Source of the DNA: Thermoplasmata archaeon
Lineage (GTDB): Archaea > Thermoplasmatota > Thermoplasmata > Lutacidiplasmatales > SKW197
Direction of reading: 5' to 3'
Length of the DNA: 41,486 bases
NCBI GenBank assembly: GCA_038874435.1
Contig: JAVZCK010000017.1
Location: 1-41,486 of the forward strand
In this document: one piece after another, positions 228 to 4,427 of the stretch
How positions within the stretch are numbered: position 1 is the stretch's first letter
Layout of the letters: each line of letters starts with the position of its first letter
The notes under the pieces: generated by a model
Seen by the model: only the letters and a program-made list of their open reading frames with translations
Databases searched by the model: none
What the model was told of the DNA's origin: nothing
Translations under genes and position numbers: made by a program

Positions 228-239
228 AAATAAATATAA
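228..239 (+). promoter_or_regulatory. Possible TATA box for the tRNA-Lys transcript
   Basis: An A/T-only stretch, AAATAAATATAA, lies about 45 bases before the first base of the mature tRNA. A start about 25 bases downstream would leave a short 5' leader for RNase P to remove. It is the only TATA-like element close upstream. This is inference from spacing. Confidence 0.35.
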
Positions 240-280: not shown

Positions 281-421
281 GGGCCTGTAGCTCAGCTAGG
301 TTGAATCCTGATGGAAATCCCTCACGGATTCCTAGAAAGAGCATCTGGCTTTTAACCAGGTGGTCTGGGGTTCGAAACTCCATCTTACTTTGCAGATGGA
401 GCGAAAGTCCCCACAGGCCCG
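281..421 (+). tRNA. tRNA-Lys (UUU) with two non-canonical introns
   Basis: The acceptor stem is GGGCCTG (281-287) with CAGGCCC (414-420), and 421 is the discriminator G. The D stem is GCTC (290-293)/GAGC (339-342). The anticodon stem is TCTGG (344-348)/CCAGG (356-360), with loop CTTTTAA and anticodon TTT at 351-353. The T stem is TGGGG (366-370)/CCCCA (409-413). The D-loop and T-loop are each far too long. The T-loop insert folds into a strict archaeal bulge-helix-bulge: central 4-bp helix TTCG (371-374)/CGAA (402-405), 3-nt bulges AAA (375-377) and AGT (406-408), intron helix 378-384/395-401. Cutting after 376 and 407 removes 31 nt and leaves the loop TTCGAAT. The D-loop insert has helix CTAG (296-299)/CTAG (332-335), bulges GTT (300-302) and AAA (336-338), and intron helix 303-308/326-331. 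Cutting after 301 and 337 removes 36 nt and leaves AGCTAGGTA. The spliced product is a standard 74-nt tRNA-Lys. Confidence 0.93.
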
Positions 422-463: not shown

Positions 464-715
464 ATGGCAGAATTTAACATATTTGAACATGAATATGTGC
501 CAGAGCACTACCTCGTCGACAGGGAAGAGGAAAAGGCAATTCTAAAGCAACTGAAGCTCACTAAGGATCAGCTCCCAAGAATAAAAAAGACAGATGCAGC
601 AATTCTTGCTCTTGAAACCATAACCGGAGAGATCGAGCCAGGAAGGATAATAAAGATTGTGAGGAGAAGTAGGACTGCGGGTGTGTTTGTAGCCTATCGG
701 GTAGTAGTCGTGTGA
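464..715 (+). CDS. rpoH: DNA-directed RNA polymerase subunit H (RPB5-like)
   Basis: This 83-residue protein matches the archaeal RpoH subunit, equivalent to the C-terminal part of eukaryotic RPB5, which sits in the polymerase lower jaw and contacts downstream DNA. The start [11 protein letters not shown] and the segment [17 protein letters not shown] are typical of the family, and the length is normal. GGTGA just upstream (455-459) is the ribosome binding site for ATG 464. The gene lies 42 nt after the tRNA-Lys gene and heads the polymerase operon. Its stop (713-715) falls inside the Shine-Dalgarno region of rpoB, so translation is probably coupled. A weak TATA-like CATATTC near 432-438 could give it a promoter of its own; co-transcription with the tRNA is the alternative. 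Confidence 0.95.
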
Positions 716-725
716 GGTGGAACCA

Positions 726-3700
726 ATGCGTGAATTTATTAGAGCATACATAAAAGAAAGAGGGCTTGTGAACCATCATCTATCATCGTTTAACGAGTTT
801 CTGCCAACAGCAGACAATCCCAGAAGCAGAATGCAAAAGATAGTTGATGAACTTAGATTGTCAGATGACCCGAACGAAAGAGGCATAATCCGCCTAGAAG
901 GCGCGGAAGACATTTTCATCAGAGTAGGAAGGAAGACTAACCCAGATGGCACACCCGGAAGAAATACGATTCATGTCACACTGCCGGAAGTTAAAGAGGC
1001 GGATGGCTCTAAACACATCATAACTCCCATGGAGGCACGACTCAGAGGACTTTCCTACATGGCAGATGTGGAACTTGAGTTCACGGTAGTAGAAGGAGGA
1101 GTAGAACACGCAACAGAAAGAATTGTGATTGGGCAGATACCTATAATGGTGAGATCAAAGCTCTGTAGCATTCACCGCGATAACATTCTCCGAACTTATG
1201 AAGAACTGTTCAAGCATGAACTTGCTGAAAAGAAGGAAAACTTTGGAGAACTGAGTGACGAAGAATACAGACATCTTGTAGAGAAGCTGGGTGAGGACCC
1301 ATATGACCAAGGAGGGTATTTCATAATCGGTGGGAATGAAAGGGTTTTGATTTCAATGGAGGATTTGGCACCGAATAAAGTACTTGTTGAGTACAATGAA
1401 AGGTACGGAGCCAAAACGGAGACTGCTAAGGTTTTCTCACAACGTGAAGGTTTCAGAGCACTCACCGTGGTTGAAAAAAGAAAAGATGGCATTCTGAATG
1501 TGACGGTACCTTCTGCTCCTGGTCCAATTCCGATTGCAGTCCTGATGAAAGCACTTGGCATTGATAATGATAATGAAATTGCAAATGCAATTCTCTCAGA
1601 ACTTGCATACTCAGACGATCCAGAAGTAAACAAAATCAAGCACATGATTTATGTGAACATTGAAGAGTGTTATGACTCTGAGAAATATCCGCCGAATGGA
1701 ATTGCTACAACTGAGGATGCAATTCTATACTTCGAACGGAAATTTGCAACAGGACAGGCAAAGGAATACAGAGAGAAGAAGGTAGAAGCAATTCTGGACC
1801 ACTCTCTGCTTCCCCATCTAGGGACCACAAAGGCGGATAGAATCAAGAAAGCCCTCTATCTGGGGAGAATGGCAAGAGAAGTTATTGAACTAGCACTCAA
1901 TCGTAGGAAGGAAGACGATAAGGACCACTACGGAAACAAAAGAATCAAACTATCTGGTGACCTGATGGAAGACCTGTTCCGTACTGCATTCAACCAACTG
2001 ATGAAGGACCTAAAATATCAACTTGAAAAAAGTTATAGCAGGAAAAAGGACCTTAGAATTGGCTCGTCAATTCGACCAGATCTCCTAACTCAACGAATTC
2101 TTCACGCACTGGCTACCGGAAATTGGGTTGGGGGAAGGTCTGGTGTATCTCAGCTGCTTGATAGAACTTCGTACATAAGTAGTGTTAGCCACATGCGACG
2201 CGTTGTCTCACCACTAACAAGAAGCCAGCCGCACTTTGAAGCTAGAGACCTACACGCTACGCAATGGGGAAGACTATGCCCAAATGAGACCCCTGAAGGA
2301 CAGAACTGTGGCCTGGTAAAAAATTATGCACTTACAGTAGATATTTCTGAAGGTGTAGATGAGCATGAAGTTATTGCCACGCTTGAACAGTATGGCTTGA
2401 TTCCATTCAACCAAATGTCTGAGCGGCTTGCCCATATGGACAAGAAGGACATAAATCGTCTCACGAGAGTGTATGTGAACGGAAACTTTGTAGGAGTGCA
2501 CTCAAATCCACAAGAACTTGTGAAAGAAGTAAGAACCAGAAGGAGGAGCCAGAGATTATCCTATAAGCTTGGTGATCGCTCCCATGAGGTCAACATTTAT
2601 TTTGACGTTGAAATGAATGAAATCTTCGTGAACTGCGATGAGGGAAGGCTTCGGCGTCCCTTGATTGTCGTAGAAGATGGAAAAACAGTTATAACAAACA
2701 GAGAGTTGGAAGAACTGGAGGCAGGAAAAAGAGATTTCTCCTCTCTGATTAGGGATGGTTTTGTAGAATGGCTTGATGCAGATGAGGAGGAAAATGCCTA
2801 TATCGCGGTCTATGCTTACGATGTCCCAAGACAGTGCCCCAAGTGCAGCAGGTTTCTTTCTAGAAATGATGTCAAGTGGATCAACATGGGATTGGATGAT
2901 AAACAGATAAAATTAAGATGCGAATATTGTGGTGCTACATTCACTGTTCAATCACTTCTAACGAATGAACACACGCATCTGGAAATAGACCCTCTTTGCA
3001 TTCTTGGTATTTGCACAGGCCTGATTCCATATCCCGAGCATAATTCTACGCCTAGAAACACAATGGGTTCTGCAATGGCGAAACAGAGTTTGGGCTTGAA
3101 TGCAGCCAACTATCGTGGTAGGCCGGACACCCGTGGTCACATTCTTCATTATCCACAAATACCGCTCGTGCAGACAGAGGTACTTAAATATGTGAATTTT
3201 GATAAGAGGCCTGCTGGTCAGAATTTTGTAGTTGCAGTTATAAGTAGAGAGGGTTACAACATTGAAGATGCAGTAATTCTGAACAAAGCAGCAGTGGACA
3301 GGGGACTTGGAAGAAGCACATTCTTTAGAACATATAGAACAGAGGAACGCAAGTATCCAGGTGGACAGGAGGATAAGTTCGAGTGCCCGAGTTCTGAAGT
3401 GGTCGGAGCAAGACCTGATGAGGCGTATGCAAATCTAAGTGAAGACGGTTTGATTTTCCCAGAATGTGCTGTGAAAGAAGGAGACATTCTTGTTGGCAAA
3501 ACTTCCCCACCAAGATTTCTGGAGGAAGATGCAGAACTTCTCACACCTCAGAAAAGAAGGGAGACATCAATTACTGTCAGAGCAGGCGAACATGGATGGG
3601 TTGATACAGTGTTTCTTACGCTCTCTGAAAATGCAACCAAGCTAGTTAAGGTTAAGGTGAGAGACGAAAGAATTCCAGAATTGGGTGATAAATTTGCGTC

Positions 3701-4427
3701 AAGGCATGGGCAAAAAGGAGTAGTTGGTCTCATTTATCCTCAGGAGAACATGCCCTTCACACCTGATGGTATTACACCAGACCTGATTATTAACCCCCAT
3801 GCAATTCCCTCACGAATGACTGTTGCTCATGTGCTTGAAATGATTGGAGGCAAAGTTGGGAGCATGGAAGGTAGGTTCATCGATGGCACTGCATTCAGTG
3901 GTGCGAAAGAGGAAGCTCTGAGGCAGGAACTGGTCGCAATGGGATTCAAGCATACAGGTAGAGAGGTAATGTATGATGGTCTCACTGGGAAGAAAATAGA
4001 GGCGGATATTTTTGTGGGTGTGATTTACTACCAAAAACTGCACCACATGGTTGCAGGCAAGCTACACATGCGTTCTAGAGGTCCTGTGCAGATTCTCACT
4101 AGACAGCCCACAGAAGGAAGGAGCCGTCAGGGAGGTCTTAGATTTGGAGAGATGGAGAGAGATACCCTAATAGGCCATGGGACTGCGATGGTGATTAAAG
4201 ACAGATTGCTGGACGAGTCAGATGGCACAGTTCAGTATGTATGTGGGAATCCAAAATGCGGGCACATTGCTCTAAAGGACATGAAGACAAACATCCTTAA
4301 ATGTCCAGTTTGTGGAAATACTACTACAATCTATCCAGTGCAGATGAGCTATTCATTCAAACTAATGGCTGATGAACTTCTTTCGCTCGGAGTCGTAATG
4401 CGACTCCAGTTGGAGGACATGAGGTGA
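726..4427 (+). CDS. rpoB: DNA-directed RNA polymerase subunit B (single, unsplit)
   Basis: This is the second-largest subunit, about 1233 residues, in one piece. Methanogens and haloarchaea usually carry it as separate B' and B'' genes; Thermoplasma-type archaea have it fused. The active-site region [15 protein letters not shown] lies near residue 985. There are two Cys4 zinc-binding clusters: CPKC...CEYC near residue 705-740 and CGNPKCGH...CPVCGN near the C-terminus. I placed the start at ATG 726 because GAGGTGG (715-720) sits the right distance upstream; an in-frame GTG at 717 lies inside that signal and is unlikely. The last codons overlap the ribosome binding site of rpoA1. No intein is visible. 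Confidence 0.97.

Follow-up and report, generated by a model that had tools for sequence, protein, structure and literature searches.

Work on archaeal tRNA splicing has associated the CSL and ASL loops of the endonuclease EndA with many intron positions, and homodimeric and homotetrameric EndAs with canonical introns. In the available excerpts of PMC4090602, euryarchaea with alpha-4 or alpha-2 enzymes are described as having a single intron per tRNA gene, at the canonical position; approximately 8% of tRNA genes contain introns in Euryarchaeota, and intron lengths range from 11 to 129 nt. As excerpted, two 2014 reviews pair homodimer-type enzymes with canonical introns. Other sources, likewise in extract, call the A. 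fulgidus and T. acidophilum enzymes 'narrow' and report that A. fulgidus EndA can remove a 37/38 BHL intron from full-length pre-tRNA (PMC6379350), describe alpha'2 enzymes without the loop as possibly restricted (PMC12397907), and state that BHL-like motifs can be cut by homodimeric forms (PMC8707768).

The described systems that resemble the present locus, as given in the accessible parts of these and related sources, each differ from it in some respect. Thermoproteales (Pyrobaculum, Thermofilum) also have two or three introns per tRNA gene, at D- and T-loop sites and with bulge-helix-bulge (BHB) geometry, but their EndA is an (alpha-beta)2 enzyme with a CSL and large-scale intron transposition has been reported for them, whereas the Thermoplasmatota studied here have a fused homodimer-type EndA without a CSL and few, fixed sites that appear to be vertically inherited. 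Among euryarchaea, noncanonical introns are on record in three thermophilic methanogens (PMC3218864), tRNA-Pyl genes of Methanohalarchaeum HMET1 have one or two BHB introns (PMC9071458), and the training of tRNAscan-SE 2.0 included some euryarchaeal noncanonical introns (PMC8450103). These precedents share noncanonical or paired introns with our gene but are single cases, while the introns here occupy one orthologous locus, with losses, across dozens of Thermoplasmatota genomes. Korarchaeum cryptofilum also combines a homodimer-type (alpha-2) EndA with noncanonical introns; its EndA, however, is said to bear the specific loop, and the Thermoplasmatota EndAs here do not. No report of the present gene was found in the accessible portions of the open-licence literature; GtRNAdb was outside the scope of that search, and an earlier annotation is possible. 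The kind of intron is therefore already known, and what is new relative to these sources, so far as they were available, is its breadth, its inheritance and its enzyme context.

The window (the whole stretch of DNA that was analysed, 41,486 nt) corresponds to contig C17 in a draft genome of 2.16 Mb and 43 contigs, 95.07% complete. On the basis of RpoB, it was placed with the Thermoplasmatota, the closest rows being 66-68% identical. A tRNA-Lys(UUU) gene near its start is followed by rpoH, rpoB, rpoA1 and rpoA2, in that order:

228..239, + strand: TATA-box-like AAATAAATATAA, found by eye, approximately 42-53 nt 5' of the tRNA-Lys(UUU) gene
281..301, + strand: exon 1, positions 1-20 (direct reading and finder; positions 1-21 100% matched in the same-genus genome G001)
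302..337, + strand: intron 1, 36 nt, in the D-loop after position 20 (reading and finder; orthologous intron in 41/71 relatives)
338..376, + strand: exon 2, positions 21-59, with anticodon TTT (direct reading and finder)
377..407, + strand: intron 2, 31 nt, in the T-loop after position 59 (reading and finder; orthologous intron in 39/71 relatives)
408..421, + strand: exon 3, from position 60 to the discriminator G73 (direct reading and finder)
464..715, + strand: rpoH, RNA polymerase subunit H (NF007129 above cut-off; conserved neighbour)
717..4427, + strand: rpoB, RNA polymerase subunit B, undivided (NF006335 above cut-off; conserved neighbour and basis of the tree)

Of the 18 relatives inspected, a good many have similar AT-rich boxes upstream, and the AAATAAATATAA box is a putative promoter element of the tRNA gene.

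The first-pass annotation had proposed that this tRNA-Lys gene is interrupted at 302-337 and 377-407 and that its anticodon loop is uninterrupted. Both inserts proved exact to the base by direct reading and by a custom finder that removes BHB introns and scores the remaining product as a tRNA (run on positions 241-470; the gene scores 32.0), and the anticodon loop, CTTTTAA, was read intact. Excision of both inserts in silico yields a complete tRNA of 73 nt, with D-loop AGCTAGGTA, T-loop TTCGAAT, anticodon TTT, G421 as the discriminator base and all cloverleaf stems intact. The spliced sequence is identical at 64-69 of 73 positions to the 26 intronless orthologs of the same length and locus, among which AGCTAGGTA is the commonest D-loop (17/26). 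When 400 dinucleotide shuffles of positions 251-450 were scored, one reached 20.9 and no other scored at least 20. Scanning of the window on both strands in 413 overlapping 260-nt chunks (the last 26 bases left out) gave a single match of at least 25, the tRNA-Lys(UUU) gene itself. ARAGORN in bacterial mode reported no tRNA in the window, nor did Rfam give a match there at gathering score, RF00005 reaching 20.8 bits over part of the gene only. Group I and group II introns possess a conserved catalytic core; the inserts, at 36 and 31 nt, are too short for either, and no group I or group II signature was matched in the window by Rfam at gathering score, so that this identity was rejected.

In the BHB motif, two 3-nt bulges on opposite strands are separated by a 4-bp helix, and the splice junctions lie within the bulges. 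Both sites were found to have this layout by reading and by the finder:

290..342, + strand: D-site motif, with D-stem GCTC 290-293 / GAGC 339-342
294-295, + strand: unpaired A14-G15 of the D-site, opposite the bulge AAA 336-338
296-299 / 332-335, + strand: D-site central helix, CTAG / CTAG
300-302, + strand: D-site 5' bulge GTT (direct reading)
303-308 / 326-331, + strand: D-site inner helix, GAATCC / GGATTC
366..413, + strand: T-site motif, with T-stem TGGGG 366-370 / CCCCA 409-413
371-374 / 402-405, + strand: T-site central helix, TTCG / CGAA
375-377 and 406-408, + strand: T-site bulges, AAA and AGT
378-385 / 394-401, + strand: T-site inner helix, CTCCATCT / AGATGGAG

The strict hBHBh' layout, in which a helix flanks each bulge, is present at the T-site. 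At the D-site, A14-G15 face the 3' bulge and form a BHL-like internal loop in 42/42 loci; the order of D-stem, AG, 4-base helix, G-first bulge, intron, 4-base helix, A-last bulge and D-stem is kept in 42/42 as well, with GCTT replacing GCTC in the D-stem of L060. The D-site had initially been flagged as a relaxed motif. Its outer helix does depart from the strict BHB; as an oddity of this particular gene, however, the point was dropped, given that A14-G15 lie opposite a 3-base bulge in 42/42 loci, and the 'imperfect outer helix' is a conserved BHL-like feature. An unconstrained fold of the precursor was more stable than expected from shuffled sequences (z = -6.39; 0/200 shuffles as stable), with the T-arm BHB complete and the D-intron hairpin and its central helix formed; its minimum-energy structure left the D-stem GCUC/GAGC unpaired, which goes partly against the D-arm as drawn.

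The central helix of the D-site varies while remaining paired (CTAG/CTAG, GTAG/CTAC, GCAG/CTGC, CCCG/CGGG, CCAG/CTGG, TTCG/CGGA). Across 38 distinct sequences, 145/152 cells were paired, falling to 38-65/152 when the register was slid by 1-2 bases. For pairs 1-3 the observed pairing was reached by 0/2000 permutations, which ignore kinship and so do not give probabilities; pair 4 is invariant, and pair 1 is unpaired in 7/38 distinct sequences in the register used. At seven loci the finder prefers a D-site junction one base later, at 20a over 20. Among the 40 tRNA-Lys introns (36 of them distinct, with one mismatch), the exon side of the T-site central helix is always TTCG, and changes on that side were seen only outside this set, as TCCG/CGGA in L055 and TTCA/TGAA in tRNA-Ala(CGC) of the genome under study. 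Because the exon side is constant within tRNA-Lys, the evidence for covariation at the T-site comes from other tRNAs and from a single outgroup gene. T-loops start with TTCR in nearly all tRNAs, so an intron with YGAA and two further bases at its 3' end could find a docking site in any tRNA.

Both introns are also present in the same-genus genome G001, where they measure 36 and 37 nt and lie at identical sites; their changed sequences still pair. Taken together, the geometry, the shuffles, the intronless orthologs, the covariation and the G001 introns agree with the proposal of two BHB introns in one tRNA-Lys gene, and the gene with inserts at 302-337 and 377-407 is confirmed. It is extremely improbable that this copy is decayed or insertion-damaged and that AAA codons are decoded by another Lys-UUU gene not captured in the assembly. 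With 43 contigs and 95% completeness, the draft could lack such a second gene; a decayed copy, however, would not be expected to have its stems intact once spliced, to share the same two inserts, altered yet pairing, with G001 and many relatives, or to have helices that covary. A second intact Lys-UUU gene had been named in advance as the observation that would speak against the intron reading, and none was found in the 95%-complete genome, where an intronless Lys-CUU gene is the only other tRNA-Lys found. Codon use in nine ORFs (6593 codons) comprised 222 AAA and 214 AAG.

For the distribution of intron states, a tRNA-Lys 5' end was found no more than 1500 bases upstream at 71 of 80 Thermoplasmatota RpoB loci in named genomes. 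Of the nine others, L033, L069, L073, L074, L075, L093 and L106 have fewer than 300 bases upstream, L050 starts inside the gene, and L055 is the sole locus with enough upstream sequence but no tRNA-Lys there, its gene lying on another contig. The distance from tRNA to rpoB was 275-572 bases in the 68 resolved relatives. Three of the 72 genes (71 relatives plus the window) were not resolved by the final finder and were scored from an earlier finder run (L039) or by eye (L058, L063); in L045, L048 and L079 the finder labelled the 37/38 intron as 38. Introns were carried in the D-loop by 42 genes, in the T-loop by 40 and at 37/38 by 14; by combination, 26 genes had D and T introns, 11 D, 37/38 and T, three D and 37/38, three T only, two D only, and 27 none. 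The first-pass annotation had placed multiple noncanonical introns mostly in Crenarchaeota and relatives. In Thermoplasmatota, too, the arrangement proved to be common, not rare (42/72 for D, 40/72 for T).

Out-of-sample, the genes of L033, L074, L050 and L055 have D and T introns (partly by eye), those of L055 (Candidatus Sysuiplasma, gene region L244) measuring only 17 and 15 nt by eye; there, T55C in the T-loop exon is matched by an A-to-G change in the intron, also by eye. Both introns are absent from L073 as far as the contig extends, and in L069, L075, L093 and L106 a scorable Lys-UUU gene was not seen. The tRNA-Lys(UUU) of L085 has A as its discriminator (after 2421), where other resolved genes have G. 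The tRNA-Lys(CUU) gene in L179 (genome of L057) has a 27-nt T-loop 59/60 intron by eye, and that in L252 (genome of L075) has 37/38 and 59/60 introns of 29 and 33 nt.

A quick RpoB tree was built with 78 rows, or 77 without L106, for which the Lys-UUU gene was not seen. Either version requires two changes for the D intron, six for the T intron and one for the 37/38 intron, and these counts were unaltered after removal of five doubtful rows (L058, L063, L055, L050 and L105). The direction of change is set by a midpoint-drawn root, with long branches for L105, the window row and L061. One intronless group is a 17-row clade including Thermoplasmatales-like and Aciduliprofundum/DHVE2 rows. The other is a nine-row clade including Candidatus Methanoplasma and Methanomethylophilaceae, whose nesting among carriers is strongly supported and which is best read as having lost both introns. 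The three T-only rows form one clade that branches outside the D carriers; for this reason the T intron may be older than the D intron, the root not being fixed. An ancestral D intron that was lost twice is an alternative to the direction given by the midpoint-drawn root. Overall, the pattern shows the introns to be an old, inherited and widespread trait of a large archaeal group and not an oddity.

Exact excision is argued from the intronless sister genes and the clean losses. An alternative is that one insert is retained in the mature tRNA, for example as an extended D-arm. Although the D-site deviates from a strict BHB and the predicted fold lacks its outer helix, retention is highly unlikely: the D insert ranges in length between 29 and 51 nt in the 39 resolved genes, it is cleanly missing in two clades, and bulge and helix geometry marks its ends in 42/42.

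We consider it very likely, instead, that this is a working gene, the only tRNA-Lys(UUU) gene detected, whose two hairpin-loop introns are cut by a fused EndA and the exons ligated, and that the introns have been inherited vertically and lost repeatedly. In the D-loop, the four-pair central helix would be formed between exon bases C16-G18 and the 3' end of the intron, the D-stem serving as outer helix; in the T-loop, T54-G57 and the T-stem would play the corresponding parts. Both bulges in each motif would then be cut by the fused homodimer-type EndA and the exons joined by a ligase, RtcB being encoded in the genome. The geometry with its conservation and covariation, the phylogenetic pattern, the EndA type by sequence and the RtcB gene are observed, and excision, cutting order and ligation are inferred. 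Before splicing, the elbow bases of the D- and T-loops would sit in intron helices, and because they would be tied up there, the elbow would probably form only after removal of both introns.

The genome has one EndA gene, with two PF01974 domains in a single 351-aa frame. Of the two fused units the C-terminal one is catalytic, the context of the catalytic Tyr, His and Lys is conserved, and by its sequence the enzyme is of the alpha'2, homodimer type. The presumption of a homomeric endonuclease in this euryarchaeal setting was thereby borne out, and the suggested check on its type returned a fused homodimer-type enzyme without CSL or ASL as the only EndA. A search of the genomes of the 80 relatives gave an EndA match in 73 (46/50, 22/25, 5/5). 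At the CSL/ASL site, which follows the F-Y-G motif in the catalytic unit, the spacing is 22 residues in 67 of 70 aligned EndAs, as in our own, and in 39/39 EndAs of D-intron carriers; the three that deviate (23, 18 and unalignable) are all from intronless genomes. Among the alignment references, an A. fulgidus chimera with a crenarchaeal loop and ARMAN-2 show an insertion, while A. fulgidus itself has none, and no CSL or ASL insertion was present in the EndA of the genome or in the 39/39 aligned D-carrier EndAs. The alpha'2 EndAs of A. fulgidus and Thermoplasma acidophilum also consist of two fused units, and ours is collinear with that of A. fulgidus at the CSL/ASL site. The difference lies in the N-terminal pseudo-catalytic unit, where a segment homologous to the catalytic one, minus its Tyr and His, is kept in D-intron carriers but is missing in A. 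fulgidus.

It is improbable that D-intron excision requires more than EndA, for instance an additional nuclease or helper protein. In the excerpts of two reviews, homodimer-type enzymes are confined to canonical introns or given a 'narrow' specificity, which such a factor would accommodate; on the other hand, homodimeric forms are able to cut BHL-like motifs according to the available part of PMC8707768, and a four-base central helix, as EndA needs, lies between the bulges in all 42 D-sites.

A tryptophan in the N-terminal segment is of interest as a lead, not a result, in that it appears to track the D intron. It was found in 38/38 D carriers with the segment (L044 is truncated), and in 0/24 intronless and 0/3 T-only EndAs that have this column; with the out-of-sample genomes included, the counts of N-unit Trp against D intron were 40/1/0/28. 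As an EndA marker of the D intron it was set aside, having no statistical weight: L055 (Sysuiplasma), which has a D intron without the W, is a counterexample, and there are only two phylogenetically independent contrasts. A rather doubtful proposal is that of a third route to relaxed splicing, in which the dead active-site segment (RGG-x-P-x-K-T-P-x-K-x-W type) in the full pseudo-catalytic N-unit of a CSL/ASL-less EndA would contact the BHL-like D-site, loss of the segment or its Trp would go with loss of the D intron, and the introns would also provide a folding checkpoint, the elbow bases being sequestered until neither intron is left.

Among the stretches of the genome examined, 42 tRNA genes were resolved, of which 17 have introns, 13 of them at 37/38. 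Noncanonical introns were found in Lys-UUU, Ala-CGC and Arg-CCG, and in Ser-GCU with a weaker motif; those of tRNA-Ala(CGC) and tRNA-Arg(CCG) include T-loop introns. A finder allowing three introns found nothing in L115 and L119-L123; by eye, long 37/38 introns were seen in L115 and L120-L122 and one of 92 nt in L119. L123 (G000:C13:21100-22100), scored as a weak tRNA candidate, contains CRISPR-like direct repeats GTTCCAGTCCCCTTTTCATCGGGTTTTGAC with unique spacers. The genes with long 37/38 introns are as follows:

G000:C2:133716-134214 (L278): tRNA-Glu(CUC), intron of 425 nt
G000:C2:12025-12482 (L279): tRNA-Gln(CUG), intron of 384 nt
G000:C26:5865-6395 (L280): tRNA-Glu(UUC), intron of 457 nt
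G000:C5:56613-56876 (L281): tRNA-Gln(UUG), intron of 190 nt
G000:C20:5891-6181 (L297): tRNA-Arg(UCG), intron of 217 nt

At 190-457 nt, these five introns are far longer than the 11-129 nt given in the excerpt of PMC4090602. They are arrays of GC-rich hairpin modules, and Glu and Gln genes of G001 have such introns of approximately 177-209 nt; no report of them came up in a search of the open-licence literature. Hairpin modules lay outside tRNA genes in 14 of 15 regions inspected (e.g. L298-L311), the remaining one being a tRNA-Arg gene, and two copies start directly at the 3' ends of tRNA-Cys (L309) and tRNA-Leu(UAG) (L310); none was found in the window at E 1e-4. The modules resemble a repeat family, mobile or amplified, that may have entered tRNA introns.

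In practical terms, two-intron tRNA genes escape standard scans. The available portion of a 2014 genome paper reports no tRNA-Lys in Methanomassiliicoccus luminyensis and ascribes this to missing sequence. Three congeneric Methanomassiliicoccus genomes have the two-intron tRNA-Lys(UUU) gene, and we suggest, from these congeners alone, a link with the missed tRNA-Lys; as a full explanation the two-intron gene was rejected, the Lys-CUU gene being intact in all three.

With sister genes that have and lack introns available at a single locus, intron loss and the co-evolution of enzyme and intron can be tested directly. Relative to the rule of the two 2014 reviews, as available in excerpt, that homodimer-type EndAs go with canonical introns, this Thermoplasmatota clade is a broad exception. 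The occurrence of D- and T-loop introns with a loop-less EndA suggests that positionally diverse but structurally uniform introns need no loop-bearing enzyme.
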